From positions 1 through 64,000 of the forward strand of contig NZ_JAFEUN010000004.1 of NCBI RefSeq assembly GCF_016900895.1: 64,000 nucleotides of DNA, given 5' to 3'. The translations under genes and the position numbers were made by a program. Shown piece by piece: positions 22,675 through 52,707 of this stretch. Under the pieces are notes generated by a model, which searched no databases, had not been told where the DNA came from, and saw only the letters and a list, made by a program, of their open reading frames with translations. Positions within the stretch are counted from its first letter, which is position 1, and the number at the start of each line of letters is the position of its first letter. This DNA comes from Parashewanella hymeniacidonis. Lineage in GTDB: Bacteria > Pseudomonadota > Gammaproteobacteria > Enterobacterales > Shewanellaceae.

Positions 22675-22791
22675 TGATTTTTCTCAGTTCATCCAAAAAT
22701 TTTTTTCTGTTTCTTGACCCAAAATTAATCTTTTTCTGGTTGCAATTTATTGCATAATATTTCATCGTTTTGGCTCTGTTATATTGGAAAG

Positions 22792-22812
22792 TGTGTACCC
22801 AGCTGTGTACCC
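22792..22812 (+). repeat. Paired TGTGTACC repeats, left end
   Basis: Two direct copies of TGTGTACCC with a 12-bp period just upstream of the integrase start. A matching pair with the same period and orientation occurs near the right end at 62912-62932. They are likely arm-type sites for the integrase or its excision partner, or operators of the integrase gene. Confidence 0.6.
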
Positions 22813-22836
22813 ACGAATCAAAAATTGGAGCAAGCC

Positions 22837-24081
22837 ATGGCACTATCAGATATGTGGTTAAGATCTGTTCTTGGTAAATCTCAAACTCAAAGAGTTGAAA
22901 AAGCAGATAGAGATGGGTTAAGTGTAAGGGTTACACCTACAGGTAAAGTTAATTTTCAATTGAGATTCAGAATAAACAAACAGGAGTCTCGAATTTATCT
23001 AGGAGAATACCCAGCAACCACTTTAAAACAAGCCAGAGAAGAAACCTTACGCTTAAAGGCCGAACTGGAAAAAGGCAATGATCCCCGCATTGTTAAAAAG
23101 CTCGAAAAGAAAGCCAATATTGAAGTTATTACGGTAAACGGTTTATTCGATATGTGGTTTGACGCATACTGCCTTCGTCACTACAAACATCCATACGAAA
23201 CTAAACGCAATTTTGATAAACATGTTGCACCAGCTTTGGGTGAATTGCCATTTGATAAAATTAGTATTCATCAGTGGTACGCTCATTTCGAAAAACTTGC
23301 CAAGAAATACTCCACAACAACCAAAAGCTGTTTAACGATTTGCAAATCGATGGCGCAATGGGGCGTAAAGCGTAAACTGATTGAATCAAATACGTTATTA
23401 GAAATCCGTGCAGCATCAGATCTAAAAGTCAAAAATAACAAAGTGGAACGAGTGCTTGATGACGACGAAATACGCTTACTGTATCGCTACCTTGAAGAAT
23501 CAGAAATGAGGGAGTCCAACAAAGTCTTATTGCAGTTATTACTCCATTTTGGCTGTCGGGGAGGGGAGCTTAGGCACGCTAAGTCCAAGGATTTCAATTT
23601 TAGAAGTAAGAAGTGGACAGTACCAGTAGAGAACCATAAAGCAGGTAAATATACGGGTAAACCTTTGGTGCGCCCAATCATCGATGAAGTCGCAATACTA
23701 TTAAAGCCATTGGTCAAAAAGTGTAAAACTGAATATCTGTTCCCAGCAACTGACGGTGGACTAATGACCAGAGAGTCGATGGTCAGTATGCCCAAATTGA
23801 TCTTGAAGTGGTATGCACGTCGAGATATCGAATTTGAAAAATGGACGGTGCATGATCTCAGAAGAACCATGCGCACTCGAATGTCAAAACTCGCCTCACC
23901 GGGAGTAGCGGAAATCATGCTTGGGCACACGCTTTCAGAAATGAGAGGGATTTATGATCGCTATGATTATTACGATGAGCAATACGCAGGTTACACAGCT
24001 TGGTGGCATCGGCTGAATGGAATTCTAAATCCAGATGAACCAGATAATGTGGTGCCGTTTAAGGCAGCAGATAAGACATAA
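22837..24081 (+). CDS. int: Tyrosine recombinase integrase (P4-type, DUF4102 N-terminus)
   Basis: The start is taken at 22837, because MALSDMWLRSVLGKSQTQ begins the usual DUF4102 arm-binding domain and GGAG lies 8 bp upstream; the frame stays open further 5' through the TGTGTACC repeats. The product has 414 residues. The catalytic domain shows Arg in FGCRGGELRHA, H-x-x-R in VHDLRRTMR, LGHT, and the tyrosine region GIYDRYDYYDEQY. It should recombine the attachment cores in ybiT. The gene lies about 400 bp from attL, reading into the element. Confidence 0.92.
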   Translation: MALSDMWLRSVLGKSQTQRVEKADRDGLSVRVTPTGKVNFQLRFRINKQESRIYLGEYPATTLKQAREETLRLKAELEKGNDPRIVKKLEKKANIEVITVNGLFDMWFDAYCLRHYKHPYETKRNFDKHVAPALGELPFDKISIHQWYAHFEKLAKKYSTTTKSCLTICKSMAQWGVKRKLIESNTLLEIRAASDLKVKNNKVERVLDDDEIRLLYRYLEESEMRESNKVLLQLLLHFGCRGGELRHAKSKDFNFRSKKWTVPVENHKAGKYTGKPLVRPIIDEVAILLKPLVKKCKTEYLFPATDGGLMTRESMVSMPKLILKWYARRDIEFEKWTVHDLRRTMRTRMSKLASPGVAEIMLGHTLSEMRGIYDRYDYYDEQYAGYTAWWHRLNGILNPDEPDNVVPFKAADKT

Positions 24082-40222: not shown

Positions 40223-41206
40223 ATGCCAGCAAAGAAAACCAATAAAGTGCCTTATCACGAACAAATCGCCAATAAACTGATTGAGCAACTAAAAGCTGGA
40301 ACAGCACCGTGGCAAAAGCCATGGCAAGCAGGAATACCACAACTGCCGCATAATCCAATTAGCGGTACACGCTATCGAGGTTCAAACGCAATCTGGCTAG
40401 CTATGCAGTGTAGAGATGATCCAAGATGGATGACTTACAAACAAGCTAGTTCCATTGGTGCTCAAGTTCAGCGAGGACAACATGGCACCATAGTTCAATA
40501 CTGGAAGTTGTACGATAAAATTGATAAAACCGATAGCAACGGCAACAAAATACTCGACGCTAAAGGTAAGCCGTTAAAAGTGACAGTAAAACTCGACCGC
40601 CCAAGAGTCTTCACTGCCGCAGTATTCAATGCTGAGCAAATCGACGGTTTACCAGAACCTGAAGTCAAACAACTACCAGAATGGCAGCGCCATGAACGAG
40701 CAGAGAAAATCATGCAAAACTCAGGCGTAACCATACAGCATGAACAATATGATAACGCTTACTATTGCCCAGCAACAGACAGCATTCACTTACCCGCAAA
40801 ATCTCAATTCAACTCCAGAGACTCCTATTTTTCAACAGTGCTCCACGAAATTTGCCATTCGAGTGGCGCACCAAATCGCCTTAACCGAGATATGACAGGC
40901 AGATTCGGCGATGAATCCTACGCCAAAGAAGAATTACGGGCAGAAATTGGCTCACTTATGCTTGGTGACGAACTCCAAGTTGGTCATGAGTTTGGCCAAC
41001 ATGCCGCCTACGTCGACCATTGGGTCAAAGTGCTGCAAGATAATCCCAAAGAAATTTTACGGGCTTCAAGGGATGCGGAGAAAATACAGGAATATGTGTT
41101 GGGGTTGGAGAATGAAAAAGCTCAAATTACAACGAACAATCAAACTATGAAGTATCATAACGTGATCGAACAAGTAACTAAACAGAAAGAAGAAGAGCTG
41201 GATTGA
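40223..41206 (+). CDS. ardC: ArdC-like antirestriction protein with zincin domain
   Basis: 327 residues. The N-terminal DUF1738/ssDNA-binding part (YHEQIANKLIEQLKAGTAPWQKPWQAG, then GTRYRGSNAIWLAM, then GQHGTIVQYWK) is followed by a metallopeptidase-like domain with HEICH near residue 212 and the downstream EELRAEIGSLMLG. This matches ArdC, which protects entering single-stranded DNA from restriction. It lies directly behind the primase gene, so it is expressed early with the transfer genes. Intact. Confidence 0.87.
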   Translation: MPAKKTNKVPYHEQIANKLIEQLKAGTAPWQKPWQAGIPQLPHNPISGTRYRGSNAIWLAMQCRDDPRWMTYKQASSIGAQVQRGQHGTIVQYWKLYDKIDKTDSNGNKILDAKGKPLKVTVKLDRPRVFTAAVFNAEQIDGLPEPEVKQLPEWQRHERAEKIMQNSGVTIQHEQYDNAYYCPATDSIHLPAKSQFNSRDSYFSTVLHEICHSSGAPNRLNRDMTGRFGDESYAKEELRAEIGSLMLGDELQVGHEFGQHAAYVDHWVKVLQDNPKEILRASRDAEKIQEYVLGLENEKAQITTNNQTMKYHNVIEQVTKQKEEELD

Positions 41207-42694: not shown

Positions 42695-43263
42695 ATGCTA
42701 AACAATAAAAATGCAAATACAGTTGTGGTACTTGATTTCGAAACCACAGGGTTATCGCCAAATATGGGTGACCGTGGTATCGAAATTGGTGCTGTATTGG
42801 TTGAAAACGGCAAAATAACTGATCGTTTTCAAAAGTTGATGAATCCAAATTTTCGTATCAATTCATTTATTGAGGATTATACAGGTATCACCAATGCAAT
42901 GGTGAAAGGTGCACAGTCTTGTTCAAAGGTGATGAAGGAGTTTGCAGAGTGAAATATGCTGGTACTTTTGCTTGTACTATGCTGCTCGCTCGCAGGCTTT
43001 ATCCACTTTCTTATAATCATAAGCTTGGCACTTTGGTTGAGTATAAAAGTCTGCCGACTGATGGTGTTTTTCACCGAGCATTGGCCGATGCTGAAATGAC
43101 TGCATATTTATGGCTAGCGATGCTGGATGATTTACAAAATCAATATGAGTTGGAAAATGTACCATTTTCATTTATGAAATCATTGTCTAAAAGAAAGGCT
43201 GATGACGTGCCTGCCTATCTAGAAAAACAAAAGAAAAAATATAGCAATAAGGAAACCGCTTAA
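42695..43263 (+). pseudogene. DnaQ-like 3'-5' exonuclease with an internal deletion
   Basis: The first part (42695-42952) has the DEDD motif [26 protein letters not shown], and ends KVMKEFAE followed by a stop. A second frame from about 42949 continues with YAGTFACTMLLARRLYPL, YNHKLGTLVEYKSLP and the motif III region DGVFHRALADAEMTAYLWLAML. Homologous proteins have about 30 residues between, containing the HNAxFD-like motif II. So a small deletion removed motif II and shifted the frame at about 42950. Catalysis should be lost even if both pieces were joined. It overlaps the methyltransferase gene by 1 bp. Confidence 0.8.
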
Positions 43264-43844
43264 TGGTTGAATACTACAACCGAAATGCTCAGGAATTTTT
43301 TGACGGTACTATTAGCGTTAATATGTTGCCATTATATGAAAAGTTTACTCCATTGCTTCCTGAAGCTGGCTCAATTATTGACGCTGGTTGTGGCTCAGGT
43401 CGGGATAGTAAATTTTTTGCTGAGCAAGGATTCCATGTGACCGCTTTTGATGCGAGTGCAAGTTTAGTTGAGCTTGCCAAGGTGCATACCAAGCTACCTG
43501 TTATTCACTCTACATTCCTTAATTTTGAAGCGAAGGAAAAAAGTGTTGATGGTATTTGGGCTTGCGCATCTTTGCTGCATGTACCACAAGCTGAGCTAAA
43601 TCAGACTTTCATTCATCTTGCTAAATTTTTAAAAGAAGGCGGCTTATTCTATTGCTCATTTAAGTATGGTGACAACGAAATTGAACGTGATGGGAGATGT
43701 TTTACCAATGTTGATGAAGTCTCACTACCTCGTTATCTTGAAATTTCGAATTTAGATATAAAAGAACATTGGATCACATCTGATCTTCGCCCCGGTCGTG
43801 AAAATGAAAAATGGCTGAATGCAATCTTAGTCAAAAGTGCATAG
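43263..43844 (+). CDS. Class I SAM-dependent methyltransferase
   Basis: 193 residues. The SAM-binding loop is DAGCGSGRDSKFFAEQGF, the acidic residue is in VTAFDASASLVELA, and WACASLLHVPQAEL is the post-IV motif of small-molecule or protein methyltransferases. There is no NPPY or DPPY signature, so it does not look like a DNA adenine methylase. The start overlaps the exonuclease stop. The helicase gene follows after 43 bp. The three genes look like one operon; the substrate is unknown. Confidence 0.82.
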   Translation: MVEYYNRNAQEFFDGTISVNMLPLYEKFTPLLPEAGSIIDAGCGSGRDSKFFAEQGFHVTAFDASASLVELAKVHTKLPVIHSTFLNFEAKEKSVDGIWACASLLHVPQAELNQTFIHLAKFLKEGGLFYCSFKYGDNEIERDGRCFTNVDEVSLPRYLEISNLDIKEHWITSDLRPGRENEKWLNAILVKSA

Positions 43845-43887
43845 CAGATGTTCTCAAGGTAATAATAAGCAGTAAAGGATTTTAGGT

Positions 43888-46803
43888 GTGCCTGAACAAA
43901 CTTTAGTAAAAACGGAACTTGAAAATGTATTAACGGTTGGTGGAAATAATGACCATCTTTTAGAGAAGATACGTTACGCCATTAACCACGCTACTGAGAT
44001 TGATATTGCGGTATCTTTTATAAAACAATCTGGTTTAAAGTTAATTTTACCCGCCATTCAAGAAGCCATTGAGCGCCAGCAAACATCAAAATCACCTTTA
44101 AAGCTTCGTATCATAACTTCAGATTATCTTGATATTACTTGCCCAATCGCTTTGCGAGAGTTAATAGCACTAGAAGGCACTGGTGTAGAACTTAAAATAT
44201 ATACCGAAAAGAACCGCAGTTTTCATATGAAATCCTACATCTTTGTACGGACAAATGAAGCTGGCAGTTTTTATCATGGCGCTGCATTTATTGGTTCTAA
44301 CAATATCAGTGAAAGTGCTCTTACTTTTGGACATGAATGGTGTTTACGTTATGATTATAAATCCCCTGATGACTCCTTTGAAGCACTGCAATTCAAGCGT
44401 ATTCGTAAAGAGTTTGATAATATTTTTGATCATCAGCACTCAACAACGCTAACAGATGGATGGATTAATCAATACATAAAGCGTCGTAAGAAACCGAGCT
44501 TGCAAATGGTCGGTGCTGATTGGATTGATGATGAAGAATATCTACCTAACTCAGCACAAGAAGAAGCGCTTCAAGCTTTGTCCGAAACTCGTTTATTAGA
44601 TTATGTTTCTGGTTTGGTAGTTCTTGCAACAGGAATGGGTAAAACTTGGCTAGCCGCATTTGACGCTAAACAAATGCAAGCGAAACGGGTGCTATTTGTT
44701 GCACACAGAGAAGAAATTTTATCGCAAGCATTGAATACCTTCGCCAAGCTTTGGCCTGAAAAAACGTCTGGTTTTTACAATTCGCAAAATAAAAATATCG
44801 ATAAAGGTATGCTGTTTGCGTCAGTTCAGACGTTAGGCAAACAATCTCATTTGAAGAAATTCAAACAAGATCATTTTGATTACATCGTGGTGGACGAATT
44901 TCATCATGCTAGTGCCAAAACCTATCGCAATATCATTAGTCATTTTGCGCCTAAATTCCTATTAGGCTTAACAGCAACTCCAGAGCGAACCGATCAAGCT
45001 GATATTCTATCGTTGTGTTCTGACAATCTAGTGTTTGAACGAACACTTATTGATGGCATTAACTCAAAATTGTTAGTGCCATTTCATTATTACGGGATTT
45101 GGGATGAGTGTGTCGATTACCAAGCTATCCCGTGGCGCAATGGTAAGTTTGATCCTAAAGCTTTAGATGCTGAGTTTGCGACCAAGAAACGTGCAAATCA
45201 TATTTTTAAACACTGGCACCAAAAGCAACAAAGCAGAACTTTAGCATTTTGCGTGTCGAAGAATCATGCCGATTACATGGCCGATGAATTTAACTCACAC
45301 TTTAATTCTCAGGATTACAAGGCTGTGTCCGTTCATAGCGAATCGAAAGTCAAACGTAACGAAGCATTAACCATGCTCGATAAGGGTGAGCTAAATGTGA
45401 TCTTTTCGGTCGATTTGTTTAATGAAGGAACTGATTTACCATCCATCGACACAGTAATGATGTTAAGACCAACAGAGTCGAATATCATTTTCTTGCAGCA
45501 ATTAGGGCGCGGTCTAAGATTATTTGAATCGAAAAAGCAGTTAGTTGTTTTGGATTTCATTGGTAACCATCAGTCTTTTGGCAAAGATATCGAAAAACTG
45601 GTTTCAGGTTCATCAAAAGATGATGGTGATAGGGGTGGACGACCAACTTTGCCTGATGGCTGTCATATTAATTACGACCCTGAGTTAGTCGATTTTTGGA
45701 GTTCGTTAGAACGAACGTTTACTAAATCTAATGATGAGTTTTTAGAGTTGATGACAAAGCTTAGCCATCGACCAACGGCTGCTGAGTTTTATCGAGCAGG
45801 TTATGATTTAAACAAGACAGTAAAACAGCATGGCAGTTGGTTTAATTTGGTGGCGAAGCAAACGAAAGATGCCAAGTTAGCAGACTTATTGATAAAACAT
45901 AATGATTTTCTGCTTCATGCCGTTCAGCAAACCAGAATGACTAAATCATTTAAGGGTATTTTGCTAAAAGCATTTATACAGTTAGATGGCTTTAGAACTC
46001 CACCATCATTAGAAAATTTAGCTATCAAGAGTCATCAAGTATTATCTTCATACCCAGAAATAAAAGCACTAGATCTTTCTGAAAAAGAAGCAAAGTTATT
46101 CGGGAGTGATAAGAAATGGTTGGCTTATTGGAATAAGAACCCAGTTAATTTTTCTTGTAAAGCTGATAAGAAAACAAACATATCTTGGTTCAGAATCGAT
46201 AATGATAAGTTGATAGCTAATTTTGATGTTAGCGCAGAAGATGTTGAACTATTGTCCGACTGCGTATATGAACTAGTTGAGTTTCAGCTATCTCGTTATG
46301 TTGATACAAAGAACAAAGCCAAAGTAAATCCTACAGTCCAACAGGGTCAAACAAGTATAGATAAACAAGCAATTACGAATGAAGCTGTTTCAGATAATGT
46401 GATTGAACTACCTTACTATCCCGATTTAAAAATTGCCTGCGGTCACTTTAAAACTGGAACCGATGAGAATGAAGAATTTAAGGCAGTTGATTTATACAAT
46501 GTCGACCCGCAAAAGCATTTTTTAGCTCGGGCTTCAGGTAACTCTATGAATGGCGGCAAAAATCCTATTGAGGATGATGATTTATTATTGTTAGAAAAAA
46601 TCACTCCGGTAAATGCTGGATCGATCACTGGTGTTACTGTAGCCATTGAGCGACAAAGTTATGCTGGCGATAATGAATATTTACTCCGAGTGGTTGAAAA
46701 ACGCAATGGTCAGTATTGGTTAAGAGCAAATAATCCTGACTATAAAACCATACCCGCAACGGATGATATGGTAACTTTTGCACGTTTTAAGCAAGTGCTG
46801 TAA
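43888..46803 (+). CDS. PLD-helicase fusion with a C-terminal S24/LexA-like domain
   Basis: 971 residues. An N-terminal phospholipase D-like domain (HMKSYIF and GAAFIGSNNISESAL, about residues 110-150) is followed by a superfamily 2 helicase: Walker A ATGMGKT near 250, DEFHH in motif II, GLTATPERTD in motif III, and FNEGTDLPSIDTVMMLRPTES with QQLGRGLRL in motifs V-VI. It resembles the PLD/ResIII/DUF3427 helicases. The last 120 residues look like an S24 peptidase fold (ARASGNSMNGG, then IEDDDLLLLEKI, ANNPDYKTI). The usual catalytic Lys position appears to be Arg (EYLLRVVEK). The start is GTG. Cargo, possibly defence or DNA processing. Confidence 0.8.
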   Translation: MPEQTLVKTELENVLTVGGNNDHLLEKIRYAINHATEIDIAVSFIKQSGLKLILPAIQEAIERQQTSKSPLKLRIITSDYLDITCPIALRELIALEGTGVELKIYTEKNRSFHMKSYIFVRTNEAGSFYHGAAFIGSNNISESALTFGHEWCLRYDYKSPDDSFEALQFKRIRKEFDNIFDHQHSTTLTDGWINQYIKRRKKPSLQMVGADWIDDEEYLPNSAQEEALQALSETRLLDYVSGLVVLATGMGKTWLAAFDAKQMQAKRVLFVAHREEILSQALNTFAKLWPEKTSGFYNSQNKNIDKGMLFASVQTLGKQSHLKKFKQDHFDYIVVDEFHHASAKTYRNIISHFAPKFLLGLTATPERTDQADILSLCSDNLVFERTLIDGINSKLLVPFHYYGIWDECVDYQAIPWRNGKFDPKALDAEFATKKRANHIFKHWHQKQQSRTLAFCVSKNHADYMADEFNSHFNSQDYKAVSVHSESKVKRNEALTMLDKGELNVIFSVDLFNEGTDLPSIDTVMMLRPTESNIIFLQQLGRGLRLFESKKQLVVLDFIGNHQSFGKDIEKLVSGSSKDDGDRGGRPTLPDGCHINYDPELVDFWSSLERTFTKSNDEFLELMTKLSHRPTAAEFYRAGYDLNKTVKQHGSWFNLVAKQTKDAKLADLLIKHNDFLLHAVQQTRMTKSFKGILLKAFIQLDGFRTPPSLENLAIKSHQVLSSYPEIKALDLSEKEAKLFGSDKKWLAYWNKNPVNFSCKADKKTNISWFRIDNDKLIANFDVSAEDVELLSDCVYELVEFQLSRYVDTKNKAKVNPTVQQGQTSIDKQAITNEAVSDNVIELPYYPDLKIACGHFKTGTDENEEFKAVDLYNVDPQKHFLARASGNSMNGGKNPIEDDDLLLLEKITPVNAGSITGVTVAIERQSYAGDNEYLLRVVEKRNGQYWLRANNPDYKTIPATDDMVTFARFKQVL

Positions 46804-46933
46804 TAAAAATTCATATTCTTAAATTGCTTTTTATTTGTTCAGTTGTCTGGCGGCTATCTAGTAAACATATTGAGGTTTGATAAGATAAATTTCAACGTGT
46901 TATGGATAGCACCAAGTACAAATGGAGTGTATT

Positions 46934-47482
46934 TTGAAGTTTATTTTTGTTGATGCTGAAAATGTAGGGTTAAACGCTGTTGCTGAGGTTAAAGCTTCGC
47001 TTTCGGACAAGGTTTATGTGTTTTCAAAGAACACGCAAATCATCGAGCTTTGTGAGCGTAAGCTATTTCAAGTGTTTTCTAGTTATCCAACAGGGGCTAA
47101 TCAAGCCGACTTTTACATTATTGGGAATCTTGTTGGCGTACTGGCATCGTTAAATGATGAGCAAAAGAAACAATGTCAGTTTGTTTTATTTAGCCAAGAT
47201 AATTCATTAATTATGGCGTTTAAGTTTCAATGTCACTTACATAGAGTTGCTTGTGCCATACCTTTATCTTCAAAAAGCCAAGCATTGGTGGAAACTAAAT
47301 CAGAACTTTCAGTTCATCAGCGGATTTTGCAGCAGCTTCAGCATCCAAAATCAACCGAAGATGTTAGAAAGAAACTGAGCATGCCCAAACCAGATTTTAC
47401 TTGTGCATTGAATGAGCTTATTAAAGATAAAAAGATCAAGCGGGTACCTGATAACCAGAAGAAGTGGATGAAGGTAGGATAA
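46934..47482 (+). CDS. PIN/NYN-like domain protein with C-terminal winged helix
   Basis: 182 residues from a TTG at 46934, chosen because GGAG lies 6 bp upstream; an in-frame ATG at 46922 has no ribosome-binding site. The N-terminus KFIFVDAENVGLNAVAEVK carries the first acidic motif of NYN/PIN-like nucleases. QADFYIIGNLVGVLAS and QFVLFSQDNSLIMAFKFQ match the central motifs. The C-terminal ILQQLQHPKSTEDVRKKLSMPKPDFTCALNELIKDKKIKRV reads as a winged-helix segment. It may be an RNase. It stands alone downstream of the helicase gene. Confidence 0.6.
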   Translation: MKFIFVDAENVGLNAVAEVKASLSDKVYVFSKNTQIIELCERKLFQVFSSYPTGANQADFYIIGNLVGVLASLNDEQKKQCQFVLFSQDNSLIMAFKFQCHLHRVACAIPLSSKSQALVETKSELSVHQRILQQLQHPKSTEDVRKKLSMPKPDFTCALNELIKDKKIKRVPDNQKKWMKVG

Positions 47483-47545
47483 TCCATTAAATTCAGCTAA
47501 AGGTAGAGAGCATTAGATATCTTATCGATCTATTTGGTTGTCTAT

Positions 47546-47658
47546 CGTCATACCAGCGTAGGCTGGTATCCAGTGTCTTTTTTGTTCGAGGTAAAGGCGC
47601 TAGACTACCGACATACAAAACTGTCGTTACTTCGTTTCCAGTCTACGCTGGAGTGACG
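47546..47658 (+). repeat. Palindromic repeat unit (113 bp), intergenic
   Basis: Runs from CGTCA at 47546 to TGACG ending at 47658. The left hairpin is ATACCAGC with GCTGGTAT, then CCAGTGTCTTTTTT. The right part contains AAAGGCGC, CATACAAAACTGTCGTT and the hairpin CCAGTC-TACGC-TGGAGT. It shares its middle with the virB5 unit and is longer than the 88-bp copies. It lies in the gap of 291 bp between the PIN-like and HNH genes, where I see nothing else. Confidence 0.72.
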
Positions 47659-47773
47659 GCAAAGTTAGCTGAACGTTGTTAATAATTAGAATCCATTTTT
47701 AGCTTCTTGGTTAACATAGCCATTTTATTTTCATAGAATCTGGTTTTTGAAGAAGTTCTCGATAGGTAAGAAG

Positions 47774-49003
47774 ATGTCAAAAAATCGTGATTTGTACCGT
47801 CGTATCATGGCGATGGAAAGTCGACATTTTAATATGTGCTTCTACTGCGGCTGTATAGCTACCGAGTATGATTTCGTTCCTCCCTTCAAGTTGACAGATT
47901 TTTATATTAGAACAGGCGAGGAGGCAGATTTTTATGAAGTGCCTGCTTGCAATGAATGTCATACGATTCTAAAAGAAGATAAGTCTGGTTTGTTAGGTCA
48001 ACGAGTCGATTTTGTAAAATCAAAATTGGCTAAGAAATACGAAAAGGCACTTCGAGTTTATCACTTGTGGCATCACGATGAACTTGAAAGTTTTGATCAT
48101 AACTTTCAAAAAAGCCTAAATGCTGGCATTGAGCTTGGCACTGAGACCTACGAACGTATAAAGTTTAGAGGATTCGAATTTGAAGTTGACGGCCAAAAAC
48201 GCCATTCAAATTTTGTCGAAGAAGTGAAGTTAACTGTATTTGGTGAGCCTTTTGATCATTTCCGTGATGCCCTCGACTATGCAAGTAAGTCTTACCGTGT
48301 ACCAAAAGCAAAACTCAAAGACTTATTCGCCAAACATCAGAATAGCTTTGATAAGGCAATAACAGCTTTTCAAAAAGAGTTTGAAGAAAAACAGCTTGAA
48401 AAGAAATGTCGTGAATTTGCCAAAGCGCACAAGCAAAATCCAAATTTTGTTATTCGTACTGTAAAACTATTTTTAAAGATGGAAGAGAGTTTTACAGTCG
48501 AAAAAGCACTTGAGAAGATTTATAACACTTATATCGCTCCTGAAGCGCAAATTCAGCAAACTTTGACAAAAGGGAACTCAATGACCGTCAAATATTCAGA
48601 TTTAGAAAGTGCATTCGATTTTGTTTCATTTGGTTCTTACTCTGACAATGAGGCTTATCTCAGCATCAAAACGGGTAAGATTTATTGGGTTTCAGATAAT
48701 ATTGATGAGGAAGATGAGCCACTCCCTGATGATTTGTATCAGTCCGATGAGTATATTCAAATACCTAATAAGCATGATTTAGATCTCGGTAAAAAATTGG
48801 TTTTCGATTTTGTTCATCAATTTTTAGCGAGTGATTTTGAAACAGTATCACAGTACTTCAGAAAGCAGGGCGCCTACGGTCGTTTTAAGTTGCTGTTAGA
48901 GCGTAGAGAAAAACTTGATGAATGGTACAAATTCGAAGAGCAAGAGAATAAGAAAACTTTGCTAGAGTGGGCTAAAGAAAGTGGAGTTACAGTAACTGAG
49001 TAG
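47774..49003 (+). CDS. HNH-like zinc protein fused to a UPF0158 domain
   Basis: 409 residues from the ATG at 47774, preceded by AGGTAAG; a TTG at 47747 is less likely. Residues 20-60 hold a Cys4 zinc core (CFYCGCIATEYDFVPPFKLTD, then VPACNECHTIL), like HNH endonucleases. A long charged helical region follows. From residue 270 the sequence MTVKYSDLESAFDFVSFG, LSIKTGKIYWVSD and YGRFKLLLERREKLDEWYKFE is a complete UPF0158 protein. An internal AAAGGGAA lies before that Met (48581), so the UPF0158 part may also be made separately. UPF0158 is normally a stand-alone gene. Confidence 0.7.
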   Translation: MSKNRDLYRRIMAMESRHFNMCFYCGCIATEYDFVPPFKLTDFYIRTGEEADFYEVPACNECHTILKEDKSGLLGQRVDFVKSKLAKKYEKALRVYHLWHHDELESFDHNFQKSLNAGIELGTETYERIKFRGFEFEVDGQKRHSNFVEEVKLTVFGEPFDHFRDALDYASKSYRVPKAKLKDLFAKHQNSFDKAITAFQKEFEEKQLEKKCREFAKAHKQNPNFVIRTVKLFLKMEESFTVEKALEKIYNTYIAPEAQIQQTLTKGNSMTVKYSDLESAFDFVSFGSYSDNEAYLSIKTGKIYWVSDNIDEEDEPLPDDLYQSDEYIQIPNKHDLDLGKKLVFDFVHQFLASDFETVSQYFRKQGAYGRFKLLLERREKLDEWYKFEEQENKKTLLEWAKESGVTVTE

Positions 49004-49760: not shown

Positions 49761-50420
49761 CTAACGTTCAATGCTTGTGTCATTAGCATCGCTTTCATGA
49801 GCGAGTGTTGAGACTTGTTTATCTCTAAATTTTATCTTTTTAAAACTAGGCGTAGCCTCTGCTGCTATTCCTAAACTTTCTAGTTCATTTGCAAATTGTT
49901 CTCGCCATATTTGTGGCAAGCCTTTTCTTACGTGCAGTCGTTTACCGTCAAATCCTAAATTCTTAACTGTTAAATGAACGTGTGGGCTGTCGGTGTCAGT
50001 GTGTAGAGCAAACACATATTGATGGTTTTCGGCAAAAGTCTTTTTAGCAAATGAGCGAACAGCCTGTTTTACAGTTTTAGGCTCAGTTCCGAACGGCATG
50101 GATAGGACAAGGTGGGTGTTGTGGCGAGTTTTGAATCTTTGCTGAATGTCTGTGTTGCTCCAATCTTTAGCGAGTTGATGGATGTTAGGTTGGTTTTGGT
50201 AAATCAAACCTGTTTCATCTTCTAGTTCAAGTTTTCCATTACGGCTGATGTAGTCGAAATGATTCATGGTATGGGCGCTGTTGTAGCCAAAACCGCTAAC
50301 TTTAACCATAACTTCTGGTGGCTTTTTTGTATAACTACTGCTTCCTCGAATACGGTTGGACTTGGTTTTGACATCATTGTTGAGTAGATCAGAGATGGAG
50401 TCGTTAACTATTTTGCTCAT
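49761..50420 (-). CDS. Relaxase, short MOB-type
   Basis: 219 residues. The N-terminal nicking domain shows HTMNHFDYISRNGK with the likely catalytic Tyr, and the metal-binding motif HTDTDSPHVHLTVK. It is shorter than most conjugative relaxases, with no C-terminal helicase, primase or other domain; the separate TOPRIM/LPD7 gene may supply that. It overlaps mobC by 17 bp. Orientation is opposite to the virB operon. It should nick at oriT, probably the region right of mobC. Confidence 0.85.
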   Translation of the reverse strand: MSKIVNDSISDLLNNDVKTKSNRIRGSSSYTKKPPEVMVKVSGFGYNSAHTMNHFDYISRNGKLELEDETGLIYQNQPNIHQLAKDWSNTDIQQRFKTRHNTHLVLSMPFGTEPKTVKQAVRSFAKKTFAENHQYVFALHTDTDSPHVHLTVKNLGFDGKRLHVRKGLPQIWREQFANELESLGIAAEATPSFKKIKFRDKQVSTLAHESDANDTSIER

Positions 50421-50931
50421 AATCCAGCTCCCATCTTTTACAGTTTTTATGGATCAAGTCATTAACCAGTGTTTGGTGTGCGGTAAATTTGTTATCCAGC
50501 ATTTCAATCATTTCACGAGTGACTTTATCACTGTGGCGATAGTCGATGTTTAACACTCTGGCGATTTGATTCAGGTTACGGCCAATAGCGGCTAAGTGAC
50601 GGTTGGATTCTCTGAGTACTTTTATCTCGTCATCTGTTAATACGGGCTGACGATTTAGGTTTGCCATAATGGAAGCTCGAACCCAAGTGCTTTGGTTTAG
50701 GTAGCCTTCGGCAATTGCTTGCTGTGTGAGTTTATCCAACGTGTAACGGGTTAGGCGAACAGAGACTCGTTCAGTTTTAACTTCGTTAAAGTGATTGTCA
50801 TTGCCAGTAGCTGGTGTGACTTTGTTAAGCATCATTCGCAATGCATCAGATTGACTTAAACCACAGTCATTACAAAGCTGTTTTAGGTTAGATTTTTCAA
50901 TGTCTGTGAGACGTATTTCAACTCTGGCCAT
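50404..50931 (-). CDS. mobC: MobC-like relaxosome accessory protein
   Basis: 175 residues. The N-terminus (VEIRLTDIEKSNLKQLCNDCGLSQSDALRMML) and the middle (ERVSVRLTRYTLDKLTQQAIAEGYLNQSTWVRASIM) look like two ribbon-helix-helix segments. The following LRESNRHLAAIGRNLNQIARVLN is the MobC signature. It binds near oriT and helps open the DNA for the relaxase. It starts next to the candidate oriT region. Confidence 0.85.
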   Translation of the reverse strand: MARVEIRLTDIEKSNLKQLCNDCGLSQSDALRMMLNKVTPATGNDNHFNEVKTERVSVRLTRYTLDKLTQQAIAEGYLNQSTWVRASIMANLNRQPVLTDDEIKVLRESNRHLAAIGRNLNQIARVLNIDYRHSDKVTREMIEMLDNKFTAHQTLVNDLIHKNCKRWELDYEQNS

Positions 50932-51251: not shown

Positions 51252-52175
51252 TTACATCGGAAAATCAAGCTCGCTATCGGTTGATTCGACTATGCTTCTC
51301 TTTGCTTCATTCAAAATTGCAGTTAGAGTTGAGAGCATGTAGGTTTTGAACTTATCTGTAGCTAAGGTTGCTTCAAAAATATCTAGTGGTAAAAAACGCT
51401 TCATTTCATCTGATAAAGGAGCACCAAAAACAATCTGTTCAAGAGAAGCAATTCGATTATCGAGCATATCGATAAAACCGTCGAGCTTATAGTCTTCAAT
51501 TTTTTTACTTACTAAGTTTTTATCTACTTTTGCTCCCTTACGATGAAGAAAGACGAGATCCCACACATCTCTATGCCTCACATACTTCTGTGTTGCAGGT
51601 AAAGAGATGATTTTATCTGCCATTACTTCATTTAGACTTTCGGTGAAAATAAGTGTCGATGAGTAGCCGTCAGGCAAAAAATCGTAGTTGCTATTTAGAG
51701 GTAACGGCTCCTTTGTGTATGCGGGAATGTTTGCAACTTCAAGTTTCACCCTCTGTTTTGGAAGGTGTTTCTGTGTTGGCGATGTTACAACAGAAATTTG
51801 CCATTTATCGATATTTAGCTCAGCGTATTTAGGATCTTGTTTTAATGAACTAGGCTCTTTAACGCTCACCTCTAACCCATACCGATTGCCGATATATTTT
51901 TCGATAACGTGTTTGATGTCAGCAAGCATCTTGCTATTGAAGTTTTTACCTCCAGCAAAGTTTAAGTCCTCACTATATCTATTGGAGTCTCTACATAAGC
52001 GCAGGGATGTACCTCCTTGAAATACTAATTTATCGAGTAGCTTGGCTTCGTCTAATGCAAATAAGATATCGTAATGAAGGAGCTCCTTTTCAACGACAGG
52101 GCGCATATTTTTGATTTTGCCTTGTGACATTGCTAACTCTACCAGCGCATCAAAATCTTCTTTGGATTTAGTCAT
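51252..52175 (-). CDS. abiEii: AbiEii toxin (nucleotidyltransferase)
   Basis: 307 residues. The motif VFQGGTSLRLCRDSNRYSEDLNFAG is the nucleotidyltransferase core of the AbiEii/AbiGii family. Later regions DYLPDGYSSTLIFTESLNEVMADKIISL-like (YDFLPDGYSSTLIFTESLNE) and RHRDVWDLVFL are also typical. These toxins block growth by modifying tRNA and act in phage abortive infection. It overlaps the antitoxin by 8 bp. Intact. Confidence 0.9.
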   Translation of the reverse strand: MTKSKEDFDALVELAMSQGKIKNMRPVVEKELLHYDILFALDEAKLLDKLVFQGGTSLRLCRDSNRYSEDLNFAGGKNFNSKMLADIKHVIEKYIGNRYGLEVSVKEPSSLKQDPKYAELNIDKWQISVVTSPTQKHLPKQRVKLEVANIPAYTKEPLPLNSNYDFLPDGYSSTLIFTESLNEVMADKIISLPATQKYVRHRDVWDLVFLHRKGAKVDKNLVSKKIEDYKLDGFIDMLDNRIASLEQIVFGAPLSDEMKRFLPLDIFEATLATDKFKTYMLSTLTAILNEAKRSIVESTDSELDFPM

Positions 52176-52707
52176 CAGCCATTGCCTCCATATCTACTAA
52201 GTGGATGTTTCGACCTACACGTTTTAAATCTCTGAGTGCAGCCATCTTTGAGGCAACTCGAAGAGGGCTGTCAGTTGCGATTACTTGGTTCAAAATATTT
52301 TTGATCGTTCTTTTGGTGTGAGTGAACTCAATTACACCATAATTTGTTTTGTAAATACCTTTGACGCCGGTTGTCATTAGAGTAAGCCTGTCTACTGGGA
52401 TTTGAGAGATTACACCATATGATGATAATGCAGACTCTAGACTAATGTAGTTATAGGCTCCTCTTCTAAGTGCAGTGGCAATATATTCAATGGTCTTCGA
52501 GGAATGCTTATTTCTTGAAAAACCATATACGTAGACCCCCCTAGCAACACGCTCTAATAACCCTGTTTTAGCAAAACGTGCGAGGCTATCGTTCAGCGAG
52601 CGAATAGAGTCTTCGTGGAATATCTTTGCTAAGTCCCGATGTAAAAATACATAGTGACCTTTCGAGTCGAGGTCGTTAAGTCGACTGATTGCTAATTCTT
52701 GCCTCAT
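52168..52707 (-). CDS. abiEi: AbiEi antitoxin
   Basis: 179 residues. An N-terminal winged helix (GHYVFLHRDLAKIFHEDSIRSLNDSLARFAKTGLLERVARGVYVYG) is followed by the AbiEi domain (EYIATALRRGAYNYISLESALSSYGVISQIPVDRLTLMTTG). The protein represses its own operon and counteracts AbiEii. First gene of the pair, normal length. Confidence 0.88.
   Translation of the reverse strand: MRQELAISRLNDLDSKGHYVFLHRDLAKIFHEDSIRSLNDSLARFAKTGLLERVARGVYVYGFSRNKHSSKTIEYIATALRRGAYNYISLESALSSYGVISQIPVDRLTLMTTGVKGIYKTNYGVIEFTHTKRTIKNILNQVIATDSPLRVASKMAALRDLKRVGRNIHLVDMEAMADD

Follow-up and report, generated by a model that had tools for sequence, protein, structure and literature searches.

A SauUSI-family nuclease-translocase with a LexA-like S24 domain and a linked methyltransferase in Parashewanella hymeniacidonis

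Positions 1-64,000 of contig NZ_JAFEUN010000004.1 from Parashewanella hymeniacidonis, the stretch of 64,000 nucleotides that we call the window, carry a methyltransferase gene followed by a gene for a protein of 971 amino acids (aa) that joins a phospholipase D (PLD) nuclease domain, a superfamily 2 (SF2) translocase core, a helical coupler and an S24 domain of the LexA/CI/UmuD type. Our study identifies the larger protein, with very high confidence, as a SauUSI-family (Type IV) nuclease-translocase to which the methyltransferase is, in all probability, functionally coupled. The system is one of two genes, not three, and we tentatively describe it, at somewhat less than even confidence, as a two-component SauUSI-derived anti-invader nuclease whose S24 ligand is left open. 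The features of the system, all on the + strand, are as follows.

43263..43844, +, class I S-adenosylmethionine (SAM)-dependent methyltransferase, linked partner; 193 aa, Methyltransf_25 E=1.3e-14
43888..46803, +, SauUSI-family PLD nuclease / SF2 translocase / coupler / S24-like protein; 971 aa, intact
43981..44361, +, PLD nuclease domain, residues 32-158; PF13091, H113xK115 at 44224-44232
44545..45567, +, SF2 helicase/translocase core, residues 220-560; PF04851 E=2e-40, PF00271 E=2e-13
45655..46323, +, helical coupler, about residues 590-812; AlphaFold2 helices, PF18780-like signature in some relatives
46402..46800, +, LexA/CI/UmuD-type S24 domain, residues 839-971; PF00717, AlphaFold2 confidence 93, Z 15.8 to LexA 1jhe
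46435..46443, +, Ala850-Cys851-Gly852, aligned with the UmuD Cys24-Gly25 and LexA Ala-Gly cleavage sites; invariant 88/88
46543..46545, +, Ser886 (GNSM), nucleophile position of the S24 dyad; invariant 88/88
46687..46689, +, Arg934 at the catalytic Lys position; Arg in 88/88 aligned and 94/94 by motif, Lys in eight reference S24 proteins

Identity of the nuclease-translocase

The family assignment is made because sequence, PADLOC model and structure all give SauUSI as the top match. It is the closest solved relative by sequence (PDB 7clg, E=3e-80), the top PADLOC models are those of the Type IV mREase (mREase_IV), and the full AlphaFold2 model, with a mean predicted local distance difference test (pLDDT) of 82, has SauUSI as its top structural match (Foldseek E 4e-38; VIA Z 23.2 over 499 residues at 34% identity); the overall root mean square deviation between the two is 20 A because their domains are placed differently. 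The preliminary description of this DNA had located three genes here and had read PLD, SF2 helicase and S24 domains in the largest of them, and both the coordinates and the domains are borne out by profile matches to ResIII/Helicase_C (residues 220-544), Peptidase_S24 (residues 848-960, E=2.4e-11) and PLDc_2 (residues 32-158), the last barely over its cut-off. The PLD residues H113, K115, N139, S141 and E150 are invariant in the 83 alignment rows covering them, and the helicase motifs (Walker A GKT, DEFHH and QQLGRGLR) are kept across the family alignment. Between the helicase and S24 domains, the coupler region consists mostly of helices from residue 598 to 819 of the AlphaFold2 model; a PF18780-like signature lies somewhere in the chain of 5 of 8 relatives in one scan and of 6 of 46 in another.

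The C-terminus of SauUSI is a DUF3427/SRA reader of 5-methylcytosine (5mC) (PMC3874153, PMC7913695), and the mechanism of the enzyme has been described (PMC7913695). SauUSI and the window protein share the PLD nuclease with its HxK motif, the SF2 ATPase and the helical coupler, in identical order. SauUSI is a single polypeptide ending in its SRA-fold reader of 5mC and 5-hydroxymethylcytosine, with no methyltransferase partner, whereas the window protein has no match to DUF3427, carries S24 at its end and has a separate, linked methyltransferase. EcoBLMcrX, considered as the closest enzyme, was dropped, as its paper contains none of the domain terms sought and SauUSI is the match. By family membership a defence function is likely, in line with the defence-like nature proposed earlier, and some homologues do lie among restriction-modification (R-M) and other defence genes. 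By analogy with SauUSI, the protein would dimerise through its PLD domains, move along double-stranded DNA with ATP and make double-strand breaks.

The S24 domain and its Ser-Arg pair

The structure search with the full model filled with helicases, and the S24 domain was therefore folded separately. The resulting AlphaFold2 model (pLDDT 93.4) has LexA and lambda CI as its best matches, which upholds the S24 fold by the very check, structure prediction, that the preliminary description had named for it. The highest score is to cleavage-ready LexA (1jhe, Z 15.8); RecA-bound LexA/CI entries (8gmu, 8s7g, 8gms and 8trg) reach Z 15.1-15.5, with CI 8gmu at 15.5, and the LexA entries 1jhf, 1jhc and 7b5g score 11.8-12.1. 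The sole PDB sequence-profile match is UmuD from the RecA complex (8gmt, E=0.005), and in the hidden Markov model alignment to this entry the UmuD Cys-Gly cleavage site falls on Cys851-Gly852. In all 88 aligned proteins Ser886, Ala850-Cys851-Gly852, Arg934 and Lys891, five residues past Ser886, are invariant, and Arg also occupies the dyad-Lys position in all 94 distinct sequences checked by motif. In our alignment, Lys fills the Arg934 position in two viral repressors and in six S24 proteins from the window's own genome, so that the substitution pointed out in the preliminary description is real; because it is invariant in all relatives checked, the sequences identify it as a family trait and not as decay. 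With LexA, lambda CI and UmuD the window domain shares the fold, the GxSM serine, the Ala/Cys-Gly cleavage segment and a model nearest the cleavage-ready state, and it differs from them in the invariant Arg in place of the dyad Lys, in a GGK after the Ser motif, in an insertion of about 9 residues before the Arg strand, and in being fused to a nuclease-translocase without a helix-turn-helix (HTH).

A slow or conditional self-cleaving switch would account for part of this conservation. On that account a trigger, the RecA filament or another, cuts Cys851-Gly852 and removes the tail (together with DUF3427 where present), which turns the nuclease on or off; the invariance of the active-site Ser and of the Ala-Cys-Gly site, the resemblance of the model to cleavage-ready LexA, and the presence of another invariant Lys (K891) shortly after the Ser all favour it. 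Against it, every relative has Arg where the general-base Lys would stand, and Arg is a poor general base. The K156A change, moreover, renders LexA non-cleavable (PMC3834820). In the literature searched we found nothing on what Arg, in particular, does in place of the catalytic Lys. We regard self-cleavage as quite unlikely, and the damage-triggered control suggested in the preliminary description is weakened to that extent, while its view that such a domain may only sense or bind is supported by the invariance of the Arg. We also rejected SOS transcriptional control: the count of the LexA box, CTGT-N8-ACAG, upstream of 83 regions was close to that expected from single-base shuffles, a result that concerns transcription only.

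We favour, with modest confidence, a non-cleaving binding domain: because the Ser and the cleavage segment are kept and Arg stands for Lys in every relative, the S24 domain would be a docking or sensing module rather than a self-cleaving switch. Its most likely ligand would be the RecA filament that the host forms on phage or plasmid DNA that is damaged or in the course of replication or recombination; through this filament the nuclease would be recruited or licensed, and sensing it may replace, or add to, the reading of modified bases. The filament is the leading candidate, and still a rather doubtful one, because engineered Lys-to-Ala forms of LexA and CI cannot cleave and bind RecA on single-stranded DNA (ssDNA) stably. 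The C-terminal domain of the non-cleavable LexA(K156A) is the only form that binds the RecA filament stably (PMC3834820), and lambda CI(101-229, with K192A) binds RecA-ssDNA with a dissociation constant of 36 nM and is a specific RecA-filament probe (PMC6363387). The latter protein, mCI (lambda CI 101-229 A152T P158T K192A; PMC6363387), resembles the window domain in being a C-terminal S24 domain that lacks the catalytic Lys; it is engineered and stand-alone, has Ala at this position and its RecA binding is shown, whereas the window domain has Arg and its docking on RecA is inferred by analogy.

Docking is thus proposed by analogy, and several points weigh against the RecA reading. The gaps in Z between conformers are modest, LexA 1jhh and 3jso scoring 13.7-13.8; RecA-bound UmuD reaches only Z 10.8, over a shorter stretch; and the docked conformation may be an AlphaFold2 default for any S24 domain. 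The unenriched LexA box counts here too, within its limit to transcription.

The structural matches raise a further alternative, as they include lambda CI and viral CI-like proteins. An S24 domain that is an integrated decoy or partner would dimerise with, or mimic, phage CI-like repressors, and antirepressors would activate the nuclease. The S24 relatives found in viral contigs are HTH-S24 repressors only, which fits the decoy; a surface decoy, however, needs no invariant Ser, Arg or cleavage site. A tblastn search found no S24 relatives in phages at E 0.01. We consider it very unlikely.

The linked methyltransferase and the exonuclease remnant

The linkage of the methyltransferase, whose SAM motif AGCGSGRD is conserved, was examined in a census of 158 family entries, 114 with S24 and 44 without, in which some genomes were counted twice. 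A methyltransferase is adjacent or fused in 108 of the 114 S24-bearing copies and missing beside 40 of the 44 S24-lacking entries. Among the six S24 copies without it (L009, L031, L052, L059, L085 and L067), L009 and L031 are one truncated copy seen twice, L052 is split, L059 lies near a contig end, L085 is a fragment, and L067 has a long N-terminal extension in which no methyltransferase was recognised; three of the four S24-lacking entries with a methyltransferase (L022, L025 and L052) are pieces of broken S24-type genes. The median gap between the methyltransferase and helicase genes is -0.5 bp over 54 pairs, their reading frames abutting or overlapping, and in three loci (L027-L029) the methyltransferase falls in another deep clade, a pattern consistent with displacement while the need for a methyltransferase persisted. 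The replaced methyltransferase in these loci and the abutting or overlapping frames are evidence beyond shared descent. Two points count on the other side: the association of S24 with the methyltransferase is largely one ancestral event retained by descent, and the double counting affects both the 114 and the 44 copies. Two unusual arrangements were also seen, one in which two methyltransferases flank an S24-type helicase (L144) and one in which a divergent methyltransferase lies 140 bp from a DUF3427-only helicase (L155).

Because the methyltransferase appears together with S24 and stays with it, it would probably control self/non-self discrimination or the activity of the protein. A more conventional possibility is that the S24 domain or the coupler lets a restriction enzyme recognise some feature of DNA, with the methyltransferase as the cognate, host-protecting modification enzyme, as in single-chain Type I/ISP R-M enzymes. 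In 27 rows of the tree the methyltransferase is fused to the nuclease-translocase, which speaks for this possibility, as does the structural resemblance of the core to Type ISP LlaBIII and to HsdR, which likewise link an SF2 translocase and a nuclease to a methyltransferase; they have a PD-(D/E)XK nuclease, whereas the window system has a PLD nuclease and is without a known specificity domain. Relatives of the methyltransferase also adjoin HNH endonuclease genes (about 340 aa) on plasmids of Acinetobacter, Roseomonas and Pseudoalteromonas (L161, L162, L164, L165 and L166), which is in its favour and is also why the methyltransferase appears to partner more than one nuclease. On the opposite side, the window methyltransferase lacks the [DNS]PP[YFW] motif of DNA amino-methyltransferases, the segment reading CASLLHVP, and its closest solved structures are RPA2492, which is uncharacterised, and then TehB and small-molecule methyltransferases. 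The missing motif does not exclude a C5 or unusual DNA methyltransferase. To our knowledge, no S24 fold acts as a sequence reader, which also counts against a cognate R-M system, and we judge such a system unlikely, if credible. The HNH partners themselves show weak PtuB/Cas9-HNH similarity and may form a second two-gene system; no S24 domain was found in them.

The third gene of the preliminary description, an exonuclease, proved to be a remnant that does not belong to the system.

42695..43263, +, DnaQ/ExoX-like exonuclease remnant, element passenger outside the system; 82-bp internal deletion and frameshift

It matches RNase_T in two frames (N-half E=1.5e-16, C-half E=1.4e-5), and when aligned at the nucleotide level with an intact relative it proves to have lost 82 bp in a single deletion, which removes the Exo II region, and to have the resulting frame change, so the gene is indeed broken. 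A genuine three-gene module of exonuclease, methyltransferase and helicase would be suggested by the single base shared by the DnaQ stop and the methyltransferase start in the window; against it, a DnaQ profile search found none near the helicase in 88 homologous loci, the intact copy in a sister genome (L134) adjoins a MobA relaxase without the methyltransferase-helicase pair, and in Parashewanella curva (L032) the pair, 73.5% identical to that of the window at the nucleotide level, adjoins hsdM/hsdS-like genes (from translations), a Type I R-M-like setting that has no DnaQ. We find such a module hardly credible. Compared with the sister element, that of the window carries additional genes between DnaQ and MobA, namely the pair and its neighbours. 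Because the intact copy lies beside MobA and none occurs in the 88 loci, DnaQ is baggage of the element, so that of the three genes earlier proposed to be coupled only the methyltransferase and the helicase remain; its breakage therefore says nothing on inactivity of the system, and the suggestion of partial inactivity falls, since both core genes are intact and the helicase gene is present in its own genome as one intact, full-length copy. Exonuclease homologues occur in 114 of the 146 host-family genomes searched, with the frame open in nearly all, and the host carries a second, intact copy elsewhere (G000:C32).

Distribution, host element and significance

A profile search of the genome collection with the C-terminal region returned 292 candidate stretches, of which the best 80 were fetched; the relatives among these belong to Vibrio, Shewanella, Pseudoalteromonas, Pseudomonas, Betaproteobacteria and others, the nearest being Parashewanella curva. 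Among the 88 aligned proteins, 59 have neither a fused methyltransferase nor a tail, 26 combine an N-terminal extension (the methyltransferase) with a tail of some 140 residues, and in 3 the tail occurs but the extension does not. This tail was identified as DUF3427 (E=6e-27) and follows the S24 domain in 13 of 46 members, so that some relatives, unlike SauUSI or the window protein, carry S24 and DUF3427 together. A FastTree phylogeny built on the nuclease-helicase core gives a single gain of S24, within a DUF3427-bearing family, and likewise a single origin of the methyltransferase fusion. The five changes of state that it gives for DUF3427 fit several losses inside the S24 clade. L023, L024 and L146 form the sister group, which has DUF3427 and no S24; no adjacent methyltransferase was found there. 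As a point against the proposed mechanism, DUF3427 is kept in about a quarter to a third of copies, so modified-base reading has not been abandoned family-wide. In L055, L057, L058, L067, L072, L075, L078, L080, L084 and L088 the S24-type pair has, within a few kb, a further SauUSI-type enzyme that carries DUF3427 and lacks S24. Scans of 130 homologue neighbours gave scattered PADLOC matches (Type IV paralogues, Type I R-M subunits and other defence genes) and a mostly mixed Pfam background with NERD in 7; they covered homologue neighbourhoods alone, so these matches carry no enrichment figure.

The window contains a phage-type integrase at 22750-24081 and MobA/MobC relaxase genes at 49761-50931, with a type IV secretion ATPase and a coupling protein between them, and these genes make it probable that the pair is carried by an integrative mobile element. 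The same element carries, alongside the restriction-like nuclease, an ArdC-type anti-restriction protein (40223-41206, +), and an AbiEii toxin (PF08843) with an AbiEi_4 antitoxin gene lies near the relaxase (51252-52707, -). Downstream of the pair lies one further passenger.

46922..47482, +, PIN7-like protein, passenger; PF18475 below cut-off, homologue adjoins the pair in L032

Together with a UPF0158-like gene (both within 46922-49003), it has homologues beside the P. curva pair in reversed order; both were rejected as parts of the system, as they adjoin the pair in Parashewanella only.

In its most specific form, our proposal is that a natural non-cleavable LexA-like domain steers the nuclease to RecA-coated ssDNA while the methyltransferase sets self/non-self discrimination or activity; taken whole, this is a possibility that we ourselves regard as doubtful. 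The trigger would then be the state of the DNA (replicating, recombining or damaged) and not a modified base or sequence. We know of no characterised restriction enzyme with an SOS or RecA-filament trigger, and our literature search found no work joining SauUSI with LexA/S24. The S24-type proteins, with their 292 candidate stretches, are a widespread and apparently so far undescribed branch of the SauUSI family, one that has lost the modified-base reader repeatedly while keeping S24 and the linked methyltransferase. Its invariant Ser-Arg pair offers a natural test of S24 conservation for binding rather than proteolysis and, if the domain does bind RecA filaments, the SOS and recombination machinery would be joined to restriction.

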